Below, one piece after another: positions 2,056 through 15,168 of a stretch of 20,027 nt of DNA. Origin of the DNA: a virus. Numbering within the stretch: the first letter of the stretch is position 1; each line of letters opens with the position of its first letter. The stretch lies in IMG/VR virus record IMGVR_UViG_3300021962_000848, positions 1 to 20,027 of that record, one strand, 5' to 3'. The position numbers and the translations under genes were made by a program. The notes under the pieces are model-generated. The model searched no databases, was not told the DNA's origin, and was given only the letters and a program-made list of their open reading frames with translations.

Positions 2056-4065
2056 ATGGAAAAGCTTTTGCTTAGGCACCAAAGAGCTCCTGGTGACATA
2101 ATTGTAATGACGGCTGTGGTAAGAGACTTGGCTCTTACTTACCCTGGTCGTTTTCATCTGTCAGTAGACACTTCTTTTAAAGAACTGTGGCACAATAATC
2201 CTTACGTCAAACCTATGCCTGACAAAAAAGGCGCTAGAATAGTAAACCTAACCTACGGCAGTTACATAAAAAAAGCAGGCACAGAAAAAATACATTTCAT
2301 AAGTTCTTTCCATAAAGACTTAAAAGTTCAGACAGGAATAGACGTTCCTCTTCTTTACCCTTATCCAGATTTACATCTGTCAGAAGAAGAAAAAGCACCT
2401 GTTTCAAAAGACAGGTACTGGATTGTTTTGGCTGGAGGAAAGAATGACTTTACCACAAAACACTGGATTTACTCGCGGTACCAAGAAGTTGTGAATATTT
2501 TGTCCGAGTTCGGAATACGAGTTATTCAGCTAGGAGGCAAAGGCAACAGACCGAGCCACTATCACCCCAAGCTTTACAACGTTCTAGACCTTGTTGGAAA
2601 GACTTCTCTTAGGCAAATGCTTAGGCTTATAAGCCAAGCAGACGGAATAATATGCACCATAACAGCCGCCATGCACATAGCGGCAGCTTTTAACAAGCCT
2701 TGCGTGGTAACTGGGGCAGGCAGGGAAGAGTGGTGGTGGGAAGCCTACACGAATAAAAATGAAGCCATGGCTGAGTTTAAAAACAAACTCACCGTAGATC
2801 ACAGGTATTTGCACACAATAGGAAAGTTTGACTGCTGCTACACAAAAGGCTGTTGGAAAAACAAAGTACAAAAGTCAGAAGGCGACAAAAGTTTTTGCAA
2901 GTATCCAGTCACATCTGAAAACGAACAGGTCGTGCCAGCTTGCATGGAGATGATAACAGTAGATAAAGTTGTGAGTTCGGTGCTTAGTTATTACATGGAC
3001 GGCACTTTGCCGTTACTGGAGGGTATGGTGCTTCCTGACGTCACAAAGCCAGTTTTGTTTGATAAGAACGGAGAGAAGTTCTATCTGACAGTTGTAAGCG
3101 ACAAGTCGGAAGTAGTCGACATACGGTCTGACGTTGTCAGCGTGATTCCAAAGTCAAACGAAAACAAAGAAGAAATAAAACTTAGTGATGATTTTTATCA
3201 GGATGCTAAGATCCACCCAGTTAACGTTAAAACTAATCAAAAATTTTCCACTAATGAATTTAATTCAAATTTAAATCAAAATTTTGAAGATAAATCAACA
3301 AAAGTGATAGGCACAAGACTCATAGACTCTCCTCACATAGAAGGAAAGATAACTCTATGTGTTCTTTTGTATGGTCCATATTTTGACATGCACAACAGAT
3401 GTCTCAGGGCAATTCAAAACACCACAGATAAACACGACATAGACCTAAGGGTTTACTGCAACAACGCTGATCAAAGAACAGAGTCTCTTTGCAAAGCCAT
3501 GTTTAATGATGGTGTTATCTCTGTAATATATTCTTCTAACGTTAATAAGTTCAAATACCCATGTATGCGCGAAATGTTTCATGACGAGAAGTTTCCAATA
3601 ACAACAAAGTGGGTCGTGTGGTTTGACGACGATACCATGTGCGACGTTGATCCGTTGTGGCTGGACAAGATGTGCTCAGCCATTAACTCTGGCTGCATAG
3701 CCGATCCTAATTTTGGAATGCTAGGACCTATCTATCATTTCGCCATGCAGCCCAAGCACGCGGAGTGGGTAAAGAAAGCTGACTGGTACAAAGGAAAGTA
3801 TTTCAGAGACAAGCTGGGTAAACCCACAGTTAATGGCAACAAGGTTGTTTTTACCACTGGGAGCTGCTGGGCTATCAAGTCAGAAGCCATAAAGAAGGCA
3901 AATGTGCCAGACGTAAGGCTAACTCATAATGGTGGTGATATTTGCATAGGCGAACAATTGTGGCAAAATGACTATACGCTAAAGAATTGGAACGGAGACA
4001 AGAAAATAATCTGCTGGTCCAGTACGGCCAGAAGAGGGGCCAGCCAAAGCATATTCAACATATGA
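2056..4065 (+). CDS. Bifunctional glycosyltransferase: GT9-like N-terminus fused to GT-A C-terminus
   Basis: This is a 669-residue fusion. Residues 1-310 resemble ADP-heptose:LPS heptosyltransferases (GT9, GT-B fold): RHQRAPGDIIVMTAVVRDL at the N-terminus, WIVLAGGKNDFTTKHW near 122-137, and a nucleotide-sugar binding region ICTITAAMHIAAAFNKP (199-215). A Cys cluster (C260, C261, C266, C281, C296) follows and may bind a metal. Residues 330-430 are a polar linker. Residues 431-669 look like a GT-A transferase, with a D524-D525-D526 metal-binding motif and a possible catalytic H-N-G-G-D (624-628). GT9 enzymes add sugars to lipopolysaccharide, but in a phage next to a Thr-rich fibre the target could be virion protein or host surface glycan. 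The target is inferred. The start ATG is 10 bases after the previous gene, with a weak purine-rich SD. Confidence 0.85.
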   Translation: MEKLLLRHQRAPGDIIVMTAVVRDLALTYPGRFHLSVDTSFKELWHNNPYVKPMPDKKGARIVNLTYGSYIKKAGTEKIHFISSFHKDLKVQTGIDVPLLYPYPDLHLSEEEKAPVSKDRYWIVLAGGKNDFTTKHWIYSRYQEVVNILSEFGIRVIQLGGKGNRPSHYHPKLYNVLDLVGKTSLRQMLRLISQADGIICTITAAMHIAAAFNKPCVVTGAGREEWWWEAYTNKNEAMAEFKNKLTVDHRYLHTIGKFDCCYTKGCWKNKVQKSEGDKSFCKYPVTSENEQVVPACMEMITVDKVVSSVLSYYMDGTLPLLEGMVLPDVTKPVLFDKNGEKFYLTVVSDKSEVVDIRSDVVSVIPKSNENKEEIKLSDDFYQDAKIHPVNVKTNQKFSTNEFNSNLNQNFEDKSTKVIGTRLIDSPHIEGKITLCVLLYGPYFDMHNRCLRAIQNTTDKHDIDLRVYCNNADQRTESLCKAMFNDGVISVIYSSNVNKFKYPCMREMFHDEKFPITTKWVVWFDDDTMCDVDPLWLDKMCSAINSGCIADPNFGMLGPIYHFAMQPKHAEWVKKADWYKGKYFRDKLGKPTVNGNKVVFTTGSCWAIKSEAIKKANVPDVRLTHNGGDICIGEQLWQNDYTLKNWNGDKKIICWSSTARRGASQSIFNI

Positions 4066-6613: not shown

Positions 6614-8248
6614 ATGGAAACCATTCGTCAAGTTGAAGACCGTATTCACCGTTACATCAGCAGCGGCGTTCAAGCTATTCAAATTGTAGTCGGCTCGCAG
6701 TCTAGAGCGGCTTTTGAGATGTTGAAACGAATTGCTAACAGGATGGGTATCGGTATTGCAGCGTGGAATCCCGCAGAAGGCTATGGTCCTCCTGTTAACG
6801 GCGTCAATCCTGTGCAAGGTTTGACTATTGCCGTTAATAGTAATTTGTTTGGAAATGATCAGAGGGAGGGCGTTATCGTAATGAGTGATTTACATTACGA
6901 TTTAAACGCTATTCCAGCGTTGGTTACTCTATTAAAGAAGTATATTTCTGAGGGCTGCTTTAATCGAAAGATTGAGCTAGAAGACGGTACTACGCAAAGT
7001 ATCCGTCGCCCTTTGTTTATTCTCACCACTGGCAGCAGCATGAATCCAGATGTTTTGCCTTACTTGAAGGTGATCACAATGCCTCTTCCTTCACAAGAAG
7101 AGTTGTCAATTGAGTTCGATCACATTCAAGAAAGCATCGACAACGAGGAGAAGAAAGAATGCTCTCCTGAGCTTCGACACTCGGTCATCGGTGCCATGTC
7201 TGGTTTGACTTGTGGTGAGGCGGCTGACGCCTTGGGTCTTGCCTTGATTACTCACGGCAGGTTCACACCCGAGATGTTGGATACCATCGAGTTTGAGAAG
7301 AGCCAGCTTCTCAAGAAAAGTAATGTCCTTACGTATATGCCGAAGTCAGCCATCATGAGTCTGCCAGACCTTGGTGGTTTCTCTGAGCTGAAGACTTGGC
7401 TGGACCAGCGGTCTATTGCTTACACACCAGAAGCAGAATCTCTGCGATTGCCGTTCCCCAAGGGTATGGTTCTCGTTGGGGTTCCTGGCACTGGCAAGAG
7501 CATGTGCGCCAAGATGATTGCGAAGCGCTTAAATCAGCCTTTGCTTCACATGGACCTGTCTTCTGTCTTCAACTCCCTGGTTGGCGAGAGCGAGAGAAAT
7601 ACTCGCGAAGCTATCCAGGTGGCTGATGCGTTTGGTGGATGCGTCCTGTTGATCGACGAGGCCGACAAGGCTCTCGGCGGTGTGGGCGAGTCTTCTGGCG
7701 ACAGCGGTGTCACTCGTCGCATTTTCGGTCAAATCCTAACATGGTTGGCCGAGAAGAAAACGAAGACATTCGTGGTACTCACCATGAATCGTGTCACGGG
7801 TATGCCTCCCGAGCTGCTGCGACGTGGCCGTTTCGATGAGGTGTTCTTTGTAGACACTCCTGACGCAACTGAGCGCAGGGAAATCTTCGAGATTCACATG
7901 CGTAACAACCATGTCGATCCAACAGGCTTCAATGAAGGAGACTGGTCAAAGATCGTAGACGCGAGCGAAGAGTTTGTGGGCGCTGAGATCGAGCAGTCAG
8001 TAGTGGCTTCTCGTTTTGCCGCCTACGCTCAGAACAAGCAAAGCGGAGCTATCTTCGACACAGACACTTTGCTGAGCACCATCAAGTCTATTGTGCCGGT
8101 TACTCGGATGGACCCCGAGAACATTAGTGCAATCCGTCAATTCGGCAGGGAGCGCGCTCGCAACGTTAGCGGGCAGACTCAAAGGATCATCAAGCAGCAA
8201 GTTCGGTCCATGGACCTTACTTTCAGCGATCCCAACCTGGCCAGATAG
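6614..8248 (+). CDS. Ycf46-like AAA+ ATPase
   Basis: This 544-residue protein has an N-terminal domain (about 1-240) and a classical AAA module. The N-domain includes a strand-helix region ending in FILTTGSSMNPDVLPYL and a GLTCGEAADALGLAL segment, as in Ycf46 proteins. The ATPase part shows L-G-G-F-S-E-L-K-T-W-L (253-263), Walker A GVPGTGKS (289-296), Walker B CVLLIDEAD (343-351), sensor-1 MN (391-392), arginine fingers in LLRRGRFDE (401-409) and a GAEI sensor-2-like motif (456-459). All catalytic residues look intact. Ycf46 is found in cyanobacteria and plastids, where its molecular target is poorly known. ATPases of this group usually form ring hexamers that remodel proteins. Arg codons are mostly CGN and Ile codons ATT/ATC, unlike the AGA/AGG- and ATA-rich neighbours, which suggests high expression or different ancestry. 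Confidence 0.9.
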   Translation: METIRQVEDRIHRYISSGVQAIQIVVGSQSRAAFEMLKRIANRMGIGIAAWNPAEGYGPPVNGVNPVQGLTIAVNSNLFGNDQREGVIVMSDLHYDLNAIPALVTLLKKYISEGCFNRKIELEDGTTQSIRRPLFILTTGSSMNPDVLPYLKVITMPLPSQEELSIEFDHIQESIDNEEKKECSPELRHSVIGAMSGLTCGEAADALGLALITHGRFTPEMLDTIEFEKSQLLKKSNVLTYMPKSAIMSLPDLGGFSELKTWLDQRSIAYTPEAESLRLPFPKGMVLVGVPGTGKSMCAKMIAKRLNQPLLHMDLSSVFNSLVGESERNTREAIQVADAFGGCVLLIDEADKALGGVGESSGDSGVTRRIFGQILTWLAEKKTKTFVVLTMNRVTGMPPELLRRGRFDEVFFVDTPDATERREIFEIHMRNNHVDPTGFNEGDWSKIVDASEEFVGAEIEQSVVASRFAAYAQNKQSGAIFDTDTLLSTIKSIVPVTRMDPENISAIRQFGRERARNVSGQTQRIIKQQVRSMDLTFSDPNLAR

Positions 8249-8267
8249 TCTTAGTTTTTTCTTTCGT

Positions 8268-8299
8268 GGGAACCGGCATTAACGTGCCGGTTCCCTTTT
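8268..8299 (+). terminator. Intrinsic terminator after the AAA+ gene
   Basis: GGGAACCGGCA (8268-8278) pairs perfectly with TGCCGGTTCCC (8285-8295) around a 6-nt loop, followed by TTTT and a T-rich stretch. It lies between the ATPase and the next gene, whose start is only 22 bases further. It may therefore be a partial terminator that lowers expression of the downstream genes relative to the ATPase. Confidence 0.8.
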
Positions 8300-8321
8300 C
8301 GTTTACACACCAGAGGTTCAA

Positions 8322-9485
8322 ATGTCAGAAGAAGTTGTTTTGGAACAGTCAGAAGTAAAAACTCCAGAAGTCAGAGTTCCTGACCTGGACGTGAGTGAGT
8401 TGGCTAGAACAGATTCTGATGTGCTTTTGAAGAGCATCGCCAGAAACTGTGTGGCTATCAAGGTGTCTGGTTCGGCAATCAGCACAGAGCGCACTATCAA
8501 CAACGCTTCTGTGACTGTAGGTGGTCAGGACGTTCCTGACGAGCTTCTTGCCGGTGCCAAGTTCAAAATTGTCCCGTCAAAGATCAGCAATCCTTTGTCG
8601 AGGATAATGGCTGCAGCCAGGTTGGCTCCAGCTTCTTATGGCACCCCTTTCGTGGGCGGTGCCTATCTTGTTCCTTTGAGCCGGCAGAAAGACGGCAGAA
8701 GCACAGCGCAGATTGTTTTTGATCGTATAAACGAGCTTCGAGCTGCGTATGCCAGTAAAGCGGCTGCGCTTAAGGACGAGTGGGAAAGTCACGTGGAAAA
8801 CGTGAGGACTAACTTCCCAGAAACCTACGAAAGAGTTAAGAACTGGTTTGTGGACGGAGACACCTTCGTGTCACGCCACAGGATCAGCACTATGCTTTTT
8901 CCGCTGGGTGCGGGTCTTCCTGTTGATTTCGACAGCCGTTTGGATGTTGGTTTCAGGAATCTGATCAACAGCCCGACTCTGTCTGAGAGCGACAGGGAGG
9001 TTATAGCAAGGGTTAAGCCTCACATCCAGGAGCTGATTGAAAGGTCAGCTTACAACGTTGGGTCGGTGCTTGAAGGCGCTGGTTCTGACACCTGGGTGGT
9101 TGAAGCTCAACAAGCCACGTCTGCAGCAATCGCTGAGGCTGTTAAGACGATGGTGCAGGAGCCAATCACAGAGTTTGCCAGCGCTTTGGCAAACGTTGAG
9201 GGAATCCTCTCAAGAGGCGGCGTCATTAGGACGGCTACTCTTGAGAATCTAAGGAAAGCCTACGATAAGCTTAACGGCTTTTCGTTCATGGCTCCCACTG
9301 AGCTGAGAGACAGACTCAGCGCTGTGGGTACCATCATTGATGCTGTTGACATGCGTGATGTCAACAAGAACGAGTCTGCTTCTAGGTCTTTGGCACAACA
9401 CTTTGCTGAAGTTCGAGAAGCTGTTACTTCCGAAGAAACGCACTCTGCGGTCTACGGAAGGTTCCGTCGTGGTTTGTCACTATAA
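8322..9485 (+). CDS. DUF3150-like protein, putative partner of the AAA+ ATPase
   Basis: This 387-residue protein starts at ATG 8322 with an AGAGG SD. The N-terminal 30 residues are acidic and probably disordered. The centre (about 35-195) has a layout like DUF3150: a helical opening, a KIVPSKISNPLSRIMAAARLA stretch, a GTPFVGGAYLVP loop (107-118), then long amphipathic helices with DEWESHVENVRTNFPETYERVKNWF. The C-terminal 200 residues are mainly helical and rich in Ala, Glu and Val. DUF3150 genes in phages are commonly found beside AAA+ (MoxR-type) genes, which supports the match, but the similarity was judged by eye. An ATPase adaptor or substrate role is inferred. Confidence 0.65.
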   Translation: MSEEVVLEQSEVKTPEVRVPDLDVSELARTDSDVLLKSIARNCVAIKVSGSAISTERTINNASVTVGGQDVPDELLAGAKFKIVPSKISNPLSRIMAAARLAPASYGTPFVGGAYLVPLSRQKDGRSTAQIVFDRINELRAAYASKAAALKDEWESHVENVRTNFPETYERVKNWFVDGDTFVSRHRISTMLFPLGAGLPVDFDSRLDVGFRNLINSPTLSESDREVIARVKPHIQELIERSAYNVGSVLEGAGSDTWVVEAQQATSAAIAEAVKTMVQEPITEFASALANVEGILSRGGVIRTATLENLRKAYDKLNGFSFMAPTELRDRLSAVGTIIDAVDMRDVNKNESASRSLAQHFAEVREAVTSEETHSAVYGRFRRGLSL

Positions 9486-9500
9486 AAAGGAGAGCTTGAA

Positions 9501-9857
9501 ATGTCTCATCGTACCGAAGTTAAGACTCAATTCCTCGACAAAGAAATCGTCAAGAAGACTTGCGAGGAGCTTGGGCATGAGTTTGTTGATCAAAAAAATG
9601 TCAGGATGTTTGATGGTTCTACCGAGTCTGAGTACGCTGTTAAGCTAAAAGGCTGGAGTCAGCCTGTGTGCGTCAAACAAGACGGCTCTGCCTTGGTTGA
9701 CAACTACGAAGGTCGCTGGGGGGACATGGCGACTTTTAACCAGTTCTGCCAACGTTATGCTGAGAACGTAACCATGTCTCACGCTGAACGGAACGGTTAT
9801 CGCGTTCTGCACCGCGAAGAAGTAAACGGAACCATTCAGCTTCGACTGGGACGGTAA
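9501..9857 (+). CDS. Ycf35-like protein, DUF1257 family
   Basis: The 118-residue length matches DUF1257 (Ycf35) proteins. Diagnostic features are the MSH start followed by a T-x-F-L-D segment, a central strand region (EYAVKLKG, PVCVKQDG), the ALVDNYEGRWG motif, FNQFCQRYAENVTMSHAERNGYRV, and an end with a G-T-I-Q-L-R-L strand. ATG 9501 has an AAAGGAGAG SD (9485-9493). The family occurs in cyanobacteria, plastids and other bacteria, and its function is unknown. Codon use is again CGT/ATC-rich like the ATPase. Its place between the ATPase and a DUF2997 gene supports a shared function. Confidence 0.85.
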   Translation: MSHRTEVKTQFLDKEIVKKTCEELGHEFVDQKNVRMFDGSTESEYAVKLKGWSQPVCVKQDGSALVDNYEGRWGDMATFNQFCQRYAENVTMSHAERNGYRVLHREEVNGTIQLRLGR

Positions 9858-9858
9858 T

Positions 9859-10245
9859 ATGCTAGCGACGGCCACTGTGCATAAGGACTCTTTGGAAAAT
9901 GTAGCCAGGAGTTGTTCTCTTGTGTACAGGTCTAATAGAATATGGCCGCTCGTCGACAATTACCCGAAGGGGGTAGGTAGAGGGGTGCTGGTATCAACCA
10001 ACCCTCTCCTACCCCCTTCTCCGTTTACTGTCGGTGTTTTTGAGCGCGCATCTTCCGTTTATGACCTGGTTTGGTTGGATGAAAAAGATTCTTGCTTATA
10101 CGCCTGGATTGGTAAGAACGGAAAGTATTTGAAGACAGCTGTGGTTTTAGAGGAAGTATCGCGACTACAGAGCCGATATGGTTATGAGTATTCTGTTTCG
10201 GTAGACGCTGATGAAACTGTCACAATTCTAATTAGGAGTGAATGA
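9859..10245 (+). CDS. Unknown protein of the AAA+/DUF1257/DUF2997 cluster
   Basis: This 128-residue protein starts one base after the DUF1257 stop, with only a weak SD (GGGACGG), so coupling is likely. The C-terminal half (VYDLVWLDEKDSCLYAWIG, then a helix with VVLEEVSRLQSRYGYE, then SVSVDADETVTILIRSE) has the strand-helix-strand ending seen in DUF1257, and it may be a diverged paralogue of the preceding gene. That is a weak by-eye match. The middle (about 36-53) is encoded by a long inverted repeat, which makes this stretch look unlike normal protein sequence (YPKGVGRGVLVSTNPLLPP). Confidence 0.65.
   Translation: MLATATVHKDSLENVARSCSLVYRSNRIWPLVDNYPKGVGRGVLVSTNPLLPPSPFTVGVFERASSVYDLVWLDEKDSCLYAWIGKNGKYLKTAVVLEEVSRLQSRYGYEYSVSVDADETVTILIRSE
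9966..10019 (+). other. Intragenic long hairpin
   Basis: GAAGGGGGTAGG (9966-9977) pairs perfectly with CCTACCCCCTTC (10008-10019). AGAGGG and ACCCTCT lie inside and can extend the helix with bulges. It lies in the coding region of the gene at 9859. No T-tract follows. It could slow ribosomes, stabilise mRNA or mark an inserted sequence. Confidence 0.6.
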
Positions 10246-10430
10246 TGGCTGCTAACATTGTTGTTACTATTTCCCCGACTGGGGATACTTCTGTTGAAGT
10301 AGAAGGTGGCTCTGGCAAAAGCTGCACGAACATTAGTTCATTCTTGGAACAGGCTCTGGGCTCTTCCAAGGGCACTGAGTACAAACAAGAGTTTTACCAA
10401 CAGGATCAGCGGATTAGCCAAAGCAACTAG
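10245..10430 (+). CDS. DUF2997 family protein
   Basis: This 61-residue protein starts at the second ATG of ATGATG. An AGGAG SD (10234-10238) is 6 bases before 10245 but only 3 before 10242. The sequence shows the DUF2997 pattern: IVVTISPTGDTSVEVEGGSG (two strands and a G-x-S-G turn), K-S-C-T-N-I, an F-L-E-Q-A-L-G helix, then an E-Y-K-Q-E-F-Y end. The cysteine in G-K-S-C is at the usual place. In cyanobacteria DUF2997 genes lie next to DUF1257 genes. Function is unknown. The overlap with the preceding stop suggests coupling. Confidence 0.85.
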   Translation: MAANIVVTISPTGDTSVEVEGGSGKSCTNISSFLEQALGSSKGTEYKQEFYQQDQRISQSN

Positions 10431-10439
10431 GAGGGTCAG

Positions 10440-10727
10440 ATGCTCGTCGAGGTGTCTCCAAACGGTGAGCTGACGTTTTTGTACGACGATAACTTGCGTG
10501 GTCTTATGGACTCAGGGCAAGCTAAAGTCACAAGAGCGTCAGACGTGGAGCCTGACGAAAATGGACAATGGACCGCCGATCTTAAAAGGGTCGGCGGTCC
10601 TGTTCTAGGACCGTTCAGGCTGAGAGAAGAAGCTCTCACGGCTGAGAAAGAATGGCTTGAAGCCAACCATTTTGGCAAAGACTACGCCAAGGCGTATACT
10701 GAGTCAAAAGGAGGCGACAATGCTTGA
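10440..10727 (+). CDS. Conserved small hypothetical protein, 95 residues
   Basis: ATG 10440 follows TAGGAGGGT, a very strong SD that overlaps the preceding stop. The sequence reads as a small family I have seen in phages and bacteria: NGELTFLYDDNLRGLMDSG, then VTRASDVEPDENGQWTADL, then GGPVLGPFRLREEAL and a W-L helix. It probably forms a beta sheet with a helical tail. The function is unknown and I cannot give a family name. It continues the run of genes after DUF2997 and overlaps the acetyltransferase start by 8 bases. Confidence 0.75.
   Translation: MLVEVSPNGELTFLYDDNLRGLMDSGQAKVTRASDVEPDENGQWTADLKRVGGPVLGPFRLREEALTAEKEWLEANHFGKDYAKAYTESKGGDNA
10570..10600 (+). other. Intragenic perfect 10-bp hairpin
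   Basis: GGACCGCCGA (10570-10579) pairs with TCGGCGGTCC (10591-10600) around an 11-nt loop. It lies within the gene at 10440, encoding the conserved W-T-A-D-L to G-G-P-V segment, so part of the match may simply reflect amino acid choice. Confidence 0.5.
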
Positions 10728-11178
10728 ACTCAGACAGTTGGTGACTGATGATATATCGTTCATAGGACATACCCTGCAGCAAACTATGGGGTGGGGTCCG
10801 AAAAAAATAATAAAGGCTGTCAAGTTTATGTGCGTCAACAAACCAGTGGGTTTGGTTTTGACAAGCGGAAACGAGCCTGTTGGCTTTATGCTTTACAAAG
10901 AAGACAAGAAGACAGGAGCCAACGTTATAAAACTTATAGTGGTAATTCCAGCGCACAGGCGAAAAGGAGGAGCCTTGGCGATGCTGGAGTGCCCTATAAA
11001 GGAGTATTTGAAGCAGGGAGTAACTATTCCTTTTGAGGCCAGGATTAGTGAGGACAATCTACCTGCGCAGATGCTGTTCAGGAAAGCTGGTTTCAAATTC
11101 AGAGGGTATTCAGATGAAAAGCTCATCTTCAGATATAGTTTCGTCGATGAGGCTGTTAGGAAAAAGCAGCAACTTTGA
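10720..11178 (+). CDS. GNAT-family N-acetyltransferase
   Basis: ATG 10720 has an AAAGGAGG SD with a 6-base gap. It is preferred over the upstream in-frame start at 10657, which would overlap the previous gene much more. The 152-residue product has the GNAT layout: an N-terminal LELRQLVTDDISFIG, a central strand EPVGFMLYKED, motif A with IKLIVVIPAHRRKGGA (70-85), where R80-R-K-G-G-A binds acetyl-CoA, and a motif-B-like NLPAQMLFRKAGFKF. GNAT enzymes transfer an acetyl group to an amine. The substrate cannot be deduced. A phage may use it to alter host proteins, aminoglycosides or tRNA, but none of these is shown here. Confidence 0.85.
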   Translation: MLELRQLVTDDISFIGHTLQQTMGWGPKKIIKAVKFMCVNKPVGLVLTSGNEPVGFMLYKEDKKTGANVIKLIVVIPAHRRKGGALAMLECPIKEYLKQGVTIPFEARISEDNLPAQMLFRKAGFKFRGYSDEKLIFRYSFVDEAVRKKQQL

Positions 11179-11395: not shown

Positions 11396-12509
11396 AAGCT
11401 TGCTTGCTGAAAGGCTGAACATTAACGCTGCTGGCTAGTGACTCGAAGAGCTTCGCATCTCCTCTTGGTAAGGTGCGAAGCTCTTCTGCCAGCTTCTCTG
11501 TGTCTAGGATGACACCACCGGCTGAAACTCTGTCAACAAAGTCAGAACCCATAACTTCAGCCAGGCTGTCTGGCCTTATAGCAGACAAGTCTGATTTCTT
11601 GTATATGCTGCCTGTCGTAAGTTGTACGTTGTCGTTTACAAACGCGCTGGCTTGCTTGACCGTGAAAGAGAATAGGTCTTCAGGCTTGCCAAGCGATTCC
11701 ATTTTTTGCAGCTTGTACTCTCTGTCTACTTTGTCGATGAGCGTGGCTATTTTTTTCATGCCAGTCATTGAGTGAGTAAAGCTGGGATTGTTTACGCAAG
11801 CCTCAGCCGCCTTGGCCAAAGTCTGCTGAACGTTGAGGTCTTTGCCAAGTCGCCTAAGCGCAACGGCTCTCTTAAACAAAAGAGAAGCGGCGTTCTTGGC
11901 GCTGCCCAAAGCGGCTCCAGCTTGCTTGTACAAATAAGTACGATCTTCTTCAGTAAGATTTTCAGTAAGACCAGTCTTGAGGATTCTGCTGGCCATCTTG
12001 ACTCTGTCTTCGTAAACAAACTCATCGCGGTATTTTTGTAGATACGCGCAAGCTTCTTTTACTTCGTTTGCATTTCTTATTGGAAGGTGTCTTTCCTTTG
12101 CGCCGTTATCGTAAACAAAGACGTAGGCAAAACTGTCATCTGGCAATTTGTTAATATCAATAGAATGGGCAGAAGAGTGTTTTTCAATTAGACTGTCTAC
12201 ATGCCTTTTGATGCCGAAGTACTCGGCAGCCTTTACAAGTCGCTCCTGTACAACGGAAGCCCTCTTACCTAGCCCTTCCTTGTTCTCAAGAAAGTACATG
12301 GTAGAGACGTAAGTGGCTGGAGCCGTATGGCAAGGAAAAGACAAAGTAACAGGATCAGCGAAAGCGTTTGGACTTTTTTCTTCAGATGTGTAGTTTATAA
12401 CATCAGAAGAAGCTTTCTTGACAAAGTCTGGGGCGTCGTAGAGTTTGATCAGTCTGTGAAGAGTCTGCCCGTTAACATCACCATGTTGGTCTAAACAGGT
12501 ATTGCTCAT
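11346..12509 (-). CDS. Hypothetical phage protein, 387 residues
   Basis: The minus-strand ATG at 12509 is preferred over one at 12545, since GAAGAGGT lies 10 bases upstream of it. The product is helical and Lys/Ala-rich. Notable segments are NAFADPVTLSFPCHTAPATYVSTMYF (early part), then H-L-P-I-R-N-A-N-E-V-K-E-A followed by a helix with Y-L-Q-K-Y, and a C-terminus of KQASMTKQTLLKLAELHQQ. The F-A-D-P, P-C-H-T and L-P-I-R patterns recall uncharacterised proteins of other large phages, perhaps virion-associated. No confident family. It is transcribed against its neighbours and overlaps both adjacent genes. Confidence 0.7.
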   Translation of the reverse strand: MSNTCLDQHGDVNGQTLHRLIKLYDAPDFVKKASSDVINYTSEEKSPNAFADPVTLSFPCHTAPATYVSTMYFLENKEGLGKRASVVQERLVKAAEYFGIKRHVDSLIEKHSSAHSIDINKLPDDSFAYVFVYDNGAKERHLPIRNANEVKEACAYLQKYRDEFVYEDRVKMASRILKTGLTENLTEEDRTYLYKQAGAALGSAKNAASLLFKRAVALRRLGKDLNVQQTLAKAAEACVNNPSFTHSMTGMKKIATLIDKVDREYKLQKMESLGKPEDLFSFTVKQASAFVNDNVQLTTGSIYKKSDLSAIRPDSLAEVMGSDFVDRVSAGGVILDTEKLAEELRTLPRGDAKLFESLASSVNVQPFSKQASMTKQTLLKLAELHQQ

Positions 12510-15168
12510 GATTACAGCGACCTCTTCAATTCTTGAGTACATCAACTTTGATTTGTTGATGAAAGAACTTGGTTTTGAACCTACAAGCTATCTTCCGGCA
12601 TTGTTTAATTGTCCGCTATGTCATTCTAAAAAAAGAATGACAATATATCCAGACCCATTTTACAAGGGACAGTGGTGGTTCTGCAAGGATTGTGGCAAAT
12701 GTGGAGACATGCTGAACCTAGCTGCTGAGCTGTGGGGCACGGATGAAAACATAGCGGCCAAAAACATGAAGGTAAAAGGCATCATAGCTGATTACTTTTA
12801 TTTTGAAGAAGCTTTGAAGCTGTACATGTTCAAATGCCTGGCCCTGCGCAAGGTACATAACGATTTCTGGGCCAGCGCGACAAACAACTCTCTGATATTT
12901 GAGTCAGGAGACCTAAGGGACGCTCTTAGGCTGCTGAACATACCTGTGCCTAAGACTCCAGAAGAATGGAAGAACGGCATGGGTAAACTCATAGGTTTAG
13001 CCAACAAGAAAGAAATAGAAAAAGCCATAGTTGTGCCTAAGCCTGAAGGGGAAAGAAAGCTAACAAGGATAACAGGTTCGTCCAGACCGTTTGTTGGCAA
13101 AAACTGGGGGAAAATGATTGTAATACCTTATTTCGATCTACCAGGAAGGATCAGACGGTTTGAGTTCATAAACTACGACGACGGCAAGCTGCAGTTTGCA
13201 AACAAGACTTTGTACCACGGAAGACTGCTTAGCAAGGTTCCTACCTTTGCCTTCTTTGACCAGATAGTAAAGGACGGCGTTGAAGAGGACTTGGTGGTTG
13301 TAGAAAACATTGAGATAGCCTTGTCTCTACATGCCAGGCACCTTAAGGAAAACAAGCCGATACTGCCTTTGTGCGTTGTAGCTGATATAAACACGTTAGC
13401 TACGCATATAGATTTATATCCTTACAGGTTTACGCTTTGGAACGCTAAGCTCAACGGCGACATATTTAAAGGCATAAAAAGCTCAAACATACCTGTGTAT
13501 CAGACAAACCAAAACGGAGAGTGGTCTAAGTTTGAACTACAAAAGTATCAACCAAAAGCTTGGATAGAAAAGGTAAGGGAAGGAAGGAAAAAGCCTCTTG
13601 AGGTAATGGAGGAGTGGCTGCCAACAGTAAGTCTAATAGAAAGACAAGCAGCTGCTGGTAGCTTGGACTTCGACACAGAAGACAGTTACGCCATAAAGTC
13701 AGAGCTGTACCCGACTCTAAGCGAGACGCTTAAGAGCTTGTCCTATCACACAGGCAAGACCATACGGCTTAGCAACGACCAGGTTTACGAGAAGGATGAC
13801 GGCTGGTACAGCAAAAGAACAGGAAGCAGAATATCTCCAGTAAAGATAAGAATCTCGAAAATAATCTCTGGAGAAGACAAAACAATACACATAGGTGAGC
13901 TGTCCTACGCTGGAAAGGTTTATCCGTTCAAAGACGAGATAGGCCAGATCGATGCCGACATGGGAGAGTTCATCAGAAAAATATTGATAAAAGACAACAA
14001 GATATGCATCTCAATACACAACAGGTACATGGACAAACTCAAGTCTTTGGCCATGATGTTCAATCCACCAGAGATAATCAAACAAAGCTTTAACGTTGGT
14101 TGGGACCAGTCTGAAAAAGCTTTCAGGTTCTGCAACTTCATGGTTGGTAGGAAAGGAGAGGTGTTCGAGGCTACGGCCATGAGCACGTCGGAAGAGTTTC
14201 CCACAGCAACCATAAAGTATGAACCTGTAAACCTGGTGGACATAAACAAGCTTACAAACAACACAACGACAAATAGATCGTTCTGGGCCCTAACGGCAGC
14301 CATGACATCAGCTGTCATGACTACAGCCACTGGAATAGTTCCCAAGCGATTTGCCTATTACGGAGAAACTGGTTCAGCCACAGATGTTGTTTGTGAATGG
14401 TTTGGCATACCTCCAACAAGTCACAAGGACATAAACGCGGAAAAGACTTACTGGCCAATAGTAGTGCCTAAGAAGAAAAGAAGCTGGCTGGCTAGTGATT
14501 TTGATTCATGGTTTGTCCTCAAGAAAAAACCACAATGCTTCATAGAGACTGACAAGCTTGAAGCATACATAATGCACCTGTTCGCTCCAGCGACTACTGT
14601 GCTGAAGATAGACTTGGACAGTCACCTTGGAGAAATTGAAGAGTCTGCCAAAAAAATTCTTCCAAATTTCCTGGCGTACGTTTTAAAAACAGAAGACATA
14701 TCATTCGACCACGAAGAAGGTATGGCCTTAGGTTTACTAAACAAAGCTGCCGACTGGGTTGAAAGCTTTGGAGTGTCGTCTGATGTTGTCAAAGAAGCCA
14801 AGAAATGTTTCAAGGCTACTGTTTCAAAAGTCAGCAACGGATGCCTGACTGCTTTCACTGAGCTGTGCCAGTACGGTATAGCCCACAGGTTTTTGATTGA
14901 AGGGTCGACCGTAGATTCTGACGTAATGCTGACGACCAAGACAGCCAAGATAGACAAGGAAAGATTTTACGAAATACTTAAGAGAGAAGGGTTTAGGTTG
15001 GCTGACGGTTTGGACATACAAAGGTATCTGGACGACACCGCAAACCCTGGCAGCAAACTGAACTACTCAGAAGCAGAAAGCTCTGACAAGTTCATAGTTG
15101 ACAGAGCTTGGTGGGAAGCTACCATGCGTGATAGTCGTGACGTTAAGACTTTGAAGATAGCGAGGTAA
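12508..15168 (+). CDS. Primase-like replication protein with zinc ribbon and degenerate P-loop
   Basis: This 886-residue protein starts at ATG 12508, with ACAGGT 7 bases before it. Residues 35-62 form a CHC2/DnaG-like zinc ribbon: C35-P-L-C38 and C59-K-D-C62, with WWFCKDCGKCGDMLNL typical of primase fingers. A Toprim-like segment (DLVVVENIEIALSLHA, with acidic E266) follows, but I do not see a clear D-x-D motif. The C-terminal half resembles a helicase/DUF927-type layout, FWALTAAMTSAVMTTATG then FAYYGETGSATD. Here the expected Walker A glycine-lysine is missing (G619-E-T-G-S-A-T), so ATP hydrolysis is doubtful. The role is probably priming and loading in phage DNA replication. The two-domain assignment beyond the zinc ribbon is tentative. 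Confidence 0.75.
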   Translation: MITATSSILEYINFDLLMKELGFEPTSYLPALFNCPLCHSKKRMTIYPDPFYKGQWWFCKDCGKCGDMLNLAAELWGTDENIAAKNMKVKGIIADYFYFEEALKLYMFKCLALRKVHNDFWASATNNSLIFESGDLRDALRLLNIPVPKTPEEWKNGMGKLIGLANKKEIEKAIVVPKPEGERKLTRITGSSRPFVGKNWGKMIVIPYFDLPGRIRRFEFINYDDGKLQFANKTLYHGRLLSKVPTFAFFDQIVKDGVEEDLVVVENIEIALSLHARHLKENKPILPLCVVADINTLATHIDLYPYRFTLWNAKLNGDIFKGIKSSNIPVYQTNQNGEWSKFELQKYQPKAWIEKVREGRKKPLEVMEEWLPTVSLIERQAAAGSLDFDTEDSYAIKSELYPTLSETLKSLSYHTGKTIRLSNDQVYEKDDGWYSKRTGSRISPVKIRISKIISGEDKTIHIGELSYAGKVYPFKDEIGQIDADMGEFIRKILIKDNKICISIHNRYMDKLKSLAMMFNPPEIIKQSFNVGWDQSEKAFRFCNFMVGRKGEVFEATAMSTSEEFPTATIKYEPVNLVDINKLTNNTTTNRSFWALTAAMTSAVMTTATGIVPKRFAYYGETGSATDVVCEWFGIPPTSHKDINAEKTYWPIVVPKKKRSWLASDFDSWFVLKKKPQCFIETDKLEAYIMHLFAPATTVLKIDLDSHLGEIEESAKKILPNFLAYVLKTEDISFDHEEGMALGLLNKAADWVESFGVSSDVVKEAKKCFKATVSKVSNGCLTAFTELCQYGIAHRFLIEGSTVDSDVMLTTKTAKIDKERFYEILKREGFRLADGLDIQRYLDDTANPGSKLNYSEAESSDKFIVDRAWWEATMRDSRDVKTLKIAR

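Follow-up and report, generated by a model that had tools for sequence, protein, structure and literature searches.

The virus fragment analysed here (IMG/VR record IMGVR_UViG_3300021962_000848; 20,027 bases, called the window throughout) carries at positions 6614-10430 a module of five open reading frames (ORFs): a Ycf46-type AAA+ ATPase gene, followed by genes for a DUF3150 protein, a DUF1257 (Ycf35-type) protein, an orphan and a DUF2997 protein. An earlier note on this DNA had singled out these ORFs, and we confirmed the coordinates of all five; they are listed here with the features inside and between them.

6614..8248, + strand: ORF1, Ycf46-type AAA+ ATPase, 544 residues (Pfam AAA, E = 3.4e-27)
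Within ORF1: degenerate AAA-like N-terminal domain, residues ~38-213; active C-terminal AAA domain, residues 285-414
7478..7501, + strand: Walker A, GVPGTGKS, residues 289-296, from the translation (G292, G294 and K295 in 171/171 homologues)
7646..7669, + strand: Walker B, LLIDEADK, residues 345-352, from the translation (D348 in 170/171, E349 in 171/171)
7787..7831, + strand: sensor 1 N392 and arginine-finger region R403, R406 (each in 171/171 homologues)
8268..8295, + strand: terminator-like hairpin between the ATPase and DUF3150 genes; 12-bp GC-rich stem, 4-nt loop, then T-rich, TTTTCGTTT
8322..9485, + strand: ORF2, DUF3150 protein, 387 residues (Pfam PF11348, E = 1.6e-10; 41.2 bits, cut-off 24.9)
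9501..9857, + strand: ORF3, DUF1257 (Ycf35-type) protein, 118 residues (Pfam, 4e-4; independent profiles, 2e-11 and 2e-23)
9859..10245, + strand: ORF4, orphan, 128 residues; 1-nt gap before, ATGA overlap after
10242..10430, + strand: ORF5, DUF2997 protein, 62 residues (Pfam PF11211, E = 1.3e-13)

Each of these families is already known, and the triad of ATPase, DUF1257 and DUF2997 genes is visible in the public annotation of some plasmids and phages; the version with DUF3150 seems to be an undescribed variant. We found no open-access paper that describes the triad in a phage or assigns it a function, which agrees with the earlier note, whose author knew of no phage function for the combination.

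Assignment of the five genes

ORF1 matched PHROG 8638 over residues 81-532 (E = 9e-108). Its Walker A, Walker B and arginine fingers, described as intact in the earlier note, are all present and conserved in essentially all 171 homologues. Profile-profile comparison aligned the N-terminal part (38-213) with the C-terminal part over 153 columns (probability 92.5, E = 5e-7), the aligned N-terminal part lacking a Walker A stretch; a degenerate AAA domain joined to an active one suggests a two-tier ring with a single working tier, the ring form being proposed by analogy because AAA+ proteins in general form rings. The protein belongs to PF00004, with a match of only 3e-5 to AAA_5 and none to CbbQ_C in Pfam. 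By sequence it groups with the copies in cyanobacterial operons, on a long branch and in a comparison of non-plastid sequences. Used alone as a query against viral contigs it gave no match, and an alignment query was needed.

ORF3 scored 21.0 bits against Pfam DUF1257 (PF06868), just under the gathering cut-off of 22.2. Because this score was marginal, we built independent profiles, as seed and then iterated versions, from genes of phages and plasmids, always excluding the window: the first of the two independent values listed above came from the seed profile and the second from the iterated one, over residues 1-116 (full length), so that by sequence comparison the identity of ORF3 as a DUF1257 protein is firm. 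ORF5 scored 51.0 bits against a cut-off of 24.1 over the whole Pfam DUF2997 profile (1-47 of 47), and matched the independent profiles at 1.5e-11 (seed) and 9e-17 (iterated); its GxxC motif is present, with G25 found in 65 and C28 in 61 of 67 family members. The earlier note had assigned the two genes by resemblance, and profile searches place both in the families that it named.

The best stretch of ORF2 spans positions 3-129 of the 257 in the Pfam DUF3150 profile, and the protein matched our own profile of eight viral relatives, the window again left out, at 9e-12. Its AlphaFold model had a mean predicted local distance difference test score (pLDDT) of 70 with a confident core at residues 40-195, and a fold search with this model returned no convincing match. 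Searches of phages by tblastn with the window's DUF3150 and DUF1257 proteins likewise found no match.

ORF2 to ORF5 are tightly packed, with gaps of 15 and 1 nt and then the ATGA overlap. The terminator-like hairpin behind the ATPase gene has a folding energy of -23.9 kcal/mol (z = -3.95), and therefore ORF1 may be transcribed apart from ORF2-ORF5. The earlier note had read all five genes as one operon in tight order; the packing bears this out for ORF2-ORF5, while the hairpin after ORF1 puts a single operon beyond the evidence.

Searches of Pfam, PHROGs, NCBIfam and PADLOC gave no family match for ORF4, which also had no relative among the loci fetched. A likeness by eye to DUF1257 suggested a second copy, which we rejected: the score was 0.7 bits, and the hhalign score fell under the best of 60 shuffles. 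A separate hairpin, long and of very high stability, lies inside the gene at 9966-10019, with perfect 12-bp arms (GAAGGGGGTAGG/CCTACCCCCTTC; -38.7 kcal/mol, z -5.1), no T-tract behind it and no Rfam match; given this structure, the 5' part of ORF4 may not be purely coding.

Recurrence of the ATPase, DUF1257 and DUF2997 genes

To ask how often these genes travel together, loci were picked by the ATPase alone: 22 phage or plasmid records and 80 IMG/VR loci, together a mobile set of 102, and 80 cellular loci (individual loci are cited by L numbers). DUF1257 and DUF2997 were both present in 35 mobile loci, only one of them in 4 and neither in 63 (Fisher 1e-22, a value that overstates the certainty because related loci are not independent); DUF3150 was present in 9 of the 102, each time with both. 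A reverse search by DUF2997, independent of how the ATPase-based set was picked, found the ATPase in 10 of 10 phage records, against a background of only 126 of 50,697 records carrying it. In the phylum of L178, where DUF2997 occurs in 82 of 379 genomes, the best 30 DUF2997 loci had DUF1257 in 30/30 and the ATPase in 27/30 within ~1.5 kb. Bacillota had a DUF2997 match in only 8 of 398 genomes; these eight loci, all short stretches, had DUF1257 in 7, the ATPase in 2 and a radical-SAM gene in 1.

The combination of ATPase, DUF1257 and DUF2997 is thus not a chance one. That these families neighbour each other in cellular genomes, as the earlier note had said, is borne out in the cellular loci, and phages unrelated to one another carry the set too. 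An AAA gene and unrelated small genes might still have come to lie side by side by chance in the window, where ORF4 is an orphan and the terminator-like hairpin breaks the cluster; however, co-occurrence in both directions, conserved order and natural fusions, all concerning the ATPase, DUF1257 and DUF2997, leave this explanation a next to negligible probability.

The fusions join DUF1257 to DUF2997. One from Bacillota (L194) lies above both Pfam cut-offs, and a second (L195) scores equally with our own profiles; L031 has both domains by profile; in L024 and L108 a DUF2997 part that is weaker, though still recognisable, comes after DUF1257; and L192 is weak, its DUF1257 part in particular. In a model of the L024 fusion (pLDDT 86, predicted template modelling score 0.82), a helix-strand-strand unit from DUF1257 lies together with a strand-strand-helix unit from DUF2997, and the model's structural matches, none of them strong, cross the junction (85-161) as one unit. 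This model of a related protein, distinct from the window pair, suggests that DUF1257 and DUF2997 complete one domain, a single alpha-beta sheet. The fold searches, made for DUF3150 and for the fusion, gave no convincing match: the KA1-like match (Z 7.6) and the four-helix matches (Z up to 11.0) fall within the range of common arrangements.

A tree of 98 ATPases placed that of the window, on a long branch, with L026, L042, L047, L048 and L093 (support 80). The first four have ATPase, DUF3150, DUF1257 and DUF2997 in the window's order, and are suggestive candidates for its closest relatives by sequence; the IMG/VR loci L027, L065, L085, L088 and L186 likewise hold these four genes together. Unlike the window, all nine are without ORF4. 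Rhizobium phages RHph_I4 and L338C, Aeromonas phage HJ05, Agrobacterium phage JP1 (which has one additional small gene) and Rhodobacter phage RcMenchie have ATPase, a ~210-240-residue protein, DUF1257 and DUF2997 in the same order, with ATPases only 26-30% identical to that of the window. The ~210-240-residue protein occupies the place of DUF3150 and is not recognisably related to it: homology of the ~210-residue protein was rejected, there being no credible alignment. The archaeal Acidianus tailed spindle virus (ATSV; L010:4285-6515) has an ATPase gene closely followed by DUF1257-like and DUF2997-like genes, the latter two matching our seed profiles at 1e-5 and 7e-7; both are annotated as hypothetical, and its DUF1257 is not recognised by Pfam. 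Replication genes, for example one for a DnaB-like helicase, lie downstream of the module in several relatives.

In a Pseudanabaena plasmid (L017:2693-6500), GrpE and Hsp70 genes precede the module and a HEC-02 candidate defence gene stands between the DUF1257 and DUF2997 genes; at L183 an Hsp70-domain protein adjoins the module. The HEC-02 gene, the scattered distribution among phages, plasmids and an archaeal virus, and a match of the PADLOC IetA model to the window ATPase (3e-23) could all point to defence or counter-defence, a role raised in the earlier note, with the complex disabling a host defence protein or excluding rival elements. The IetA match, however, covers the generic AAA domain only; the IetAS pairing is absent, with no IetS-like subtilase gene among the window ORFs scanned; and DUF3150, DUF1257, ORF4 and DUF2997 are without any PADLOC match. 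The operon-like triad of cellular genomes and the cyanobacterial ycf46-DUF1257 pair also fit a housekeeping or stress role better, and we regard a defence function as improbable.

That pair is found on cyanobacterial chromosomes (L110, L129 and others), where a DUF1257 gene of ~116-117 residues (Pfam 1.5e-23) comes immediately after the ATPase gene, with no DUF2997 or DUF3150 found beside it; over the matched part, these ATPases are only ~32-40% identical to that of the window. The arrangement matches, by published description, the Synechocystis slr0373-slr0374-slr0376 operon, in which slr0374 is Ycf46 and which is responsive to iron, sulfur and oxidative stress (PMC7496141). In Synechocystis cluster g, DUF2997-ycf35 adjoin the ferredoxin gene fed7 (PMC4284462), so that DUF1257 lies next to DUF2997 as in the window, with a ferredoxin in place of the ATPase. 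Red algal plastids show a habitat-linked loss of both ycf35 and ycf46 (PMC5940233).

Ycf46 has also been tied to carbon metabolism: its inactivation in Synechocystis lowers the activity of the carbonic anhydrase EcaB (Jiang et al. 2015, as cited in PMC7496141). A phage copy might by the same token redirect host metabolism, as Ycf46 acts on CO2 use, and form an auxiliary metabolic module. A role in photosynthesis cannot be a general one, however, because the module is also carried by phages of Rhizobium, Rhodobacter, Aeromonas and Agrobacterium and by an Acidianus virus; nor were any metabolic genes recognised beside the window copy. We consider this account very improbable. Until now these families have been either domains of unknown function or ycf genes of plastids and cyanobacteria, for which a role in photosynthesis was sought. 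The clustering of the triad in non-cyanobacterial bacteria, plasmids, phages and an archaeal virus argues instead for a general, non-photosynthetic function.

Outside the module, DUF3150 is flanked by an AAA gene and a VWA gene, so the earlier note's statement that DUF3150 genes lie beside phage AAA+ genes found support in the loci examined. The Allochromatium plasmid pALVIN02 (L189) has DUF3150 beside an AAA gene, as in the window; the AAA protein is of a different class (CbbQ/MoxR-type, with CbbQ_C), and a CobT-like VWA protein takes the place of DUF1257 and DUF2997. The AAA proteins of CbbQ/CbbO, NorQ/NorD, CobS/CobT and Mg-chelatase act as cofactor or metal-centre activases. Among the 80 cellular loci, a radical-SAM (Fer4_12) gene lies near the module in 28, of which 26 have DUF2997 (Fisher 8e-11).

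These contexts raise the leading rival explanation, a cofactor or metal-centre activase in which ATP is used to insert, remove or reset a metal or iron-sulfur (Fe-S) centre in a client, in place of general remodelling; it leads because of the Fe-S links. In its favour are the radical-SAM genes, the ferredoxin neighbour and stress-responsive operon of Synechocystis, the company of DUF3150 in pALVIN02 and the near-invariant Cys of DUF2997. Set against it, the complete module-bearing genomes of RHph_I4, HJ05 and ATSV have no Fer4_12 gene, a few DUF2997 proteins are without the Cys, and the scan of window ORFs turned up no recognisable VWA or Fe-S protein. With its ATPase in PF00004 and no VWA match among the ORFs scanned, the window also does not hold the pairing of a CbbQ/CobS-type AAA protein with a VWA protein. 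On balance we think a metal-centre activase unlikely.

A putative ATP-driven remodelling complex

The reading that we favour, and hold to be probable though far from assured, is that the locus encodes a virus-borne, ATP-driven protein-remodelling complex in which the motor receives its client from the DUF1257-DUF2997 pair (and DUF3150). The Ycf46-type ATPase would form a ring of two tiers, of which the upper, AAA-like one is inactive and the lower one hydrolyses ATP; DUF1257 and DUF2997 would jointly make up one small adaptor or client module; and the DUF3150 protein may be a further AAA partner, standing in for the ~210-residue protein of other phages. Such a motor would act on a protein of the phage or of the host, remodelling or activating it, and would probably do so in the early or middle phase of infection, a timing proposed because several relatives adjoin replication genes. 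For the same reason virion assembly is the least favoured of the roles offered in the earlier note.

Because of the natural fusions and the near-perfect co-occurrence, the components likely form a physical complex. The radical-SAM, Hsp70/GrpE and AAA/VWA contexts fit an activase or remodelling machine with exchangeable partners, and we counted the chaperone neighbours at L017 and L183 in favour of remodelling. More specifically, a Ycf46 ATPase with a composite DUF1257-DUF2997 adaptor may be a machine repeatedly acquired by bacterial and archaeal viruses and here joined with DUF3150, otherwise seen with CbbQ/CobT-type activases, into a hybrid viral activase; this proposal is tentative.

Several points weigh against a remodelling complex. 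The related ATPases of 63 of the 102 mobile loci are without DUF1257 and DUF2997, though 39 of these form a separate clade of the tree. In the suggested closest relatives (L026, L042, L047 and L048), DUF1257 and DUF2997 are divergent and their calls lean on the iterated profiles, L026 reaching E values of 0.31 and 2.9 with the seed profiles alone. The composite sheet is read from one fusion model outside the window, in which only two sequences cover the DUF2997 part, and its best structural match, the KA1-like one, is within the range of chance arrangements. Given the hairpin after ORF1, the ATPase gene and the other four could be not co-expressed. No client is known, and we found no biochemistry for any module member in the open-access literature. 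Module-bearing phages are small and genetically tractable settings in which to find a client, and the question of what Ycf46 and Ycf35 do therefore becomes testable.

Other arrangements and neighbouring genes

Related ATPases were also seen in other company. In L006, L039, L067, L083, L090 and ~20 more loci the ATPase is followed by a ~280-residue protein and often by a ~114-residue one too; these partners, a second set distinct from the first, matched no recognised family, and the ATPases of this type, without DUF1257 and DUF2997, form a separate, well-supported clade. We tried two families beside related ATPases (c3 and c5, in 26 and 14 loci) as divergent DUF1257 or DUF2997, and rejected both (hhalign probability <3%). 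In ten viral contigs (L029, L033, L034, L041, L044, L050, L061, L074, L080 and L096), which are without DUF1257 or DUF2997, the ATPase has a constant set of replication neighbours that includes a DnaB-type helicase and a DnaC/IstB-like ATPase.

In cellular loci including L140, L150, L155, L159 and L174, the genes run helix-hairpin-helix protein, radical-SAM protein, ATPase, a protein of 150-420 residues (k8) and DUF2997; k8 occupies the place of DUF1257, and its cluster includes one DUF1257 match. On an Enterobacter IncY plasmid (L021:1296-10252), a related AAA gene lies near VWA, CARF, PP2C phosphatase and kinase genes.

Around the module, the window holds these features:

3-1649: tail fibre protein with collagen-like triple-helix repeats, by family search
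2056-4065: 669-residue protein with a family-9 glycosyltransferase match (4e-16) and a weak family-2 match (0.0035), adjoining the tail genes
10657-11178: GNAT acetyltransferase gene, just downstream of the module
12502-15168: primase-like protein
Minus strand: DUF3310 protein and terminase large subunit

An Rfam search of the window returned no match. The terminase of the window has only ~31% identity to its nearest counterparts in the phage collection, and the window therefore comes from a phage far from those described.

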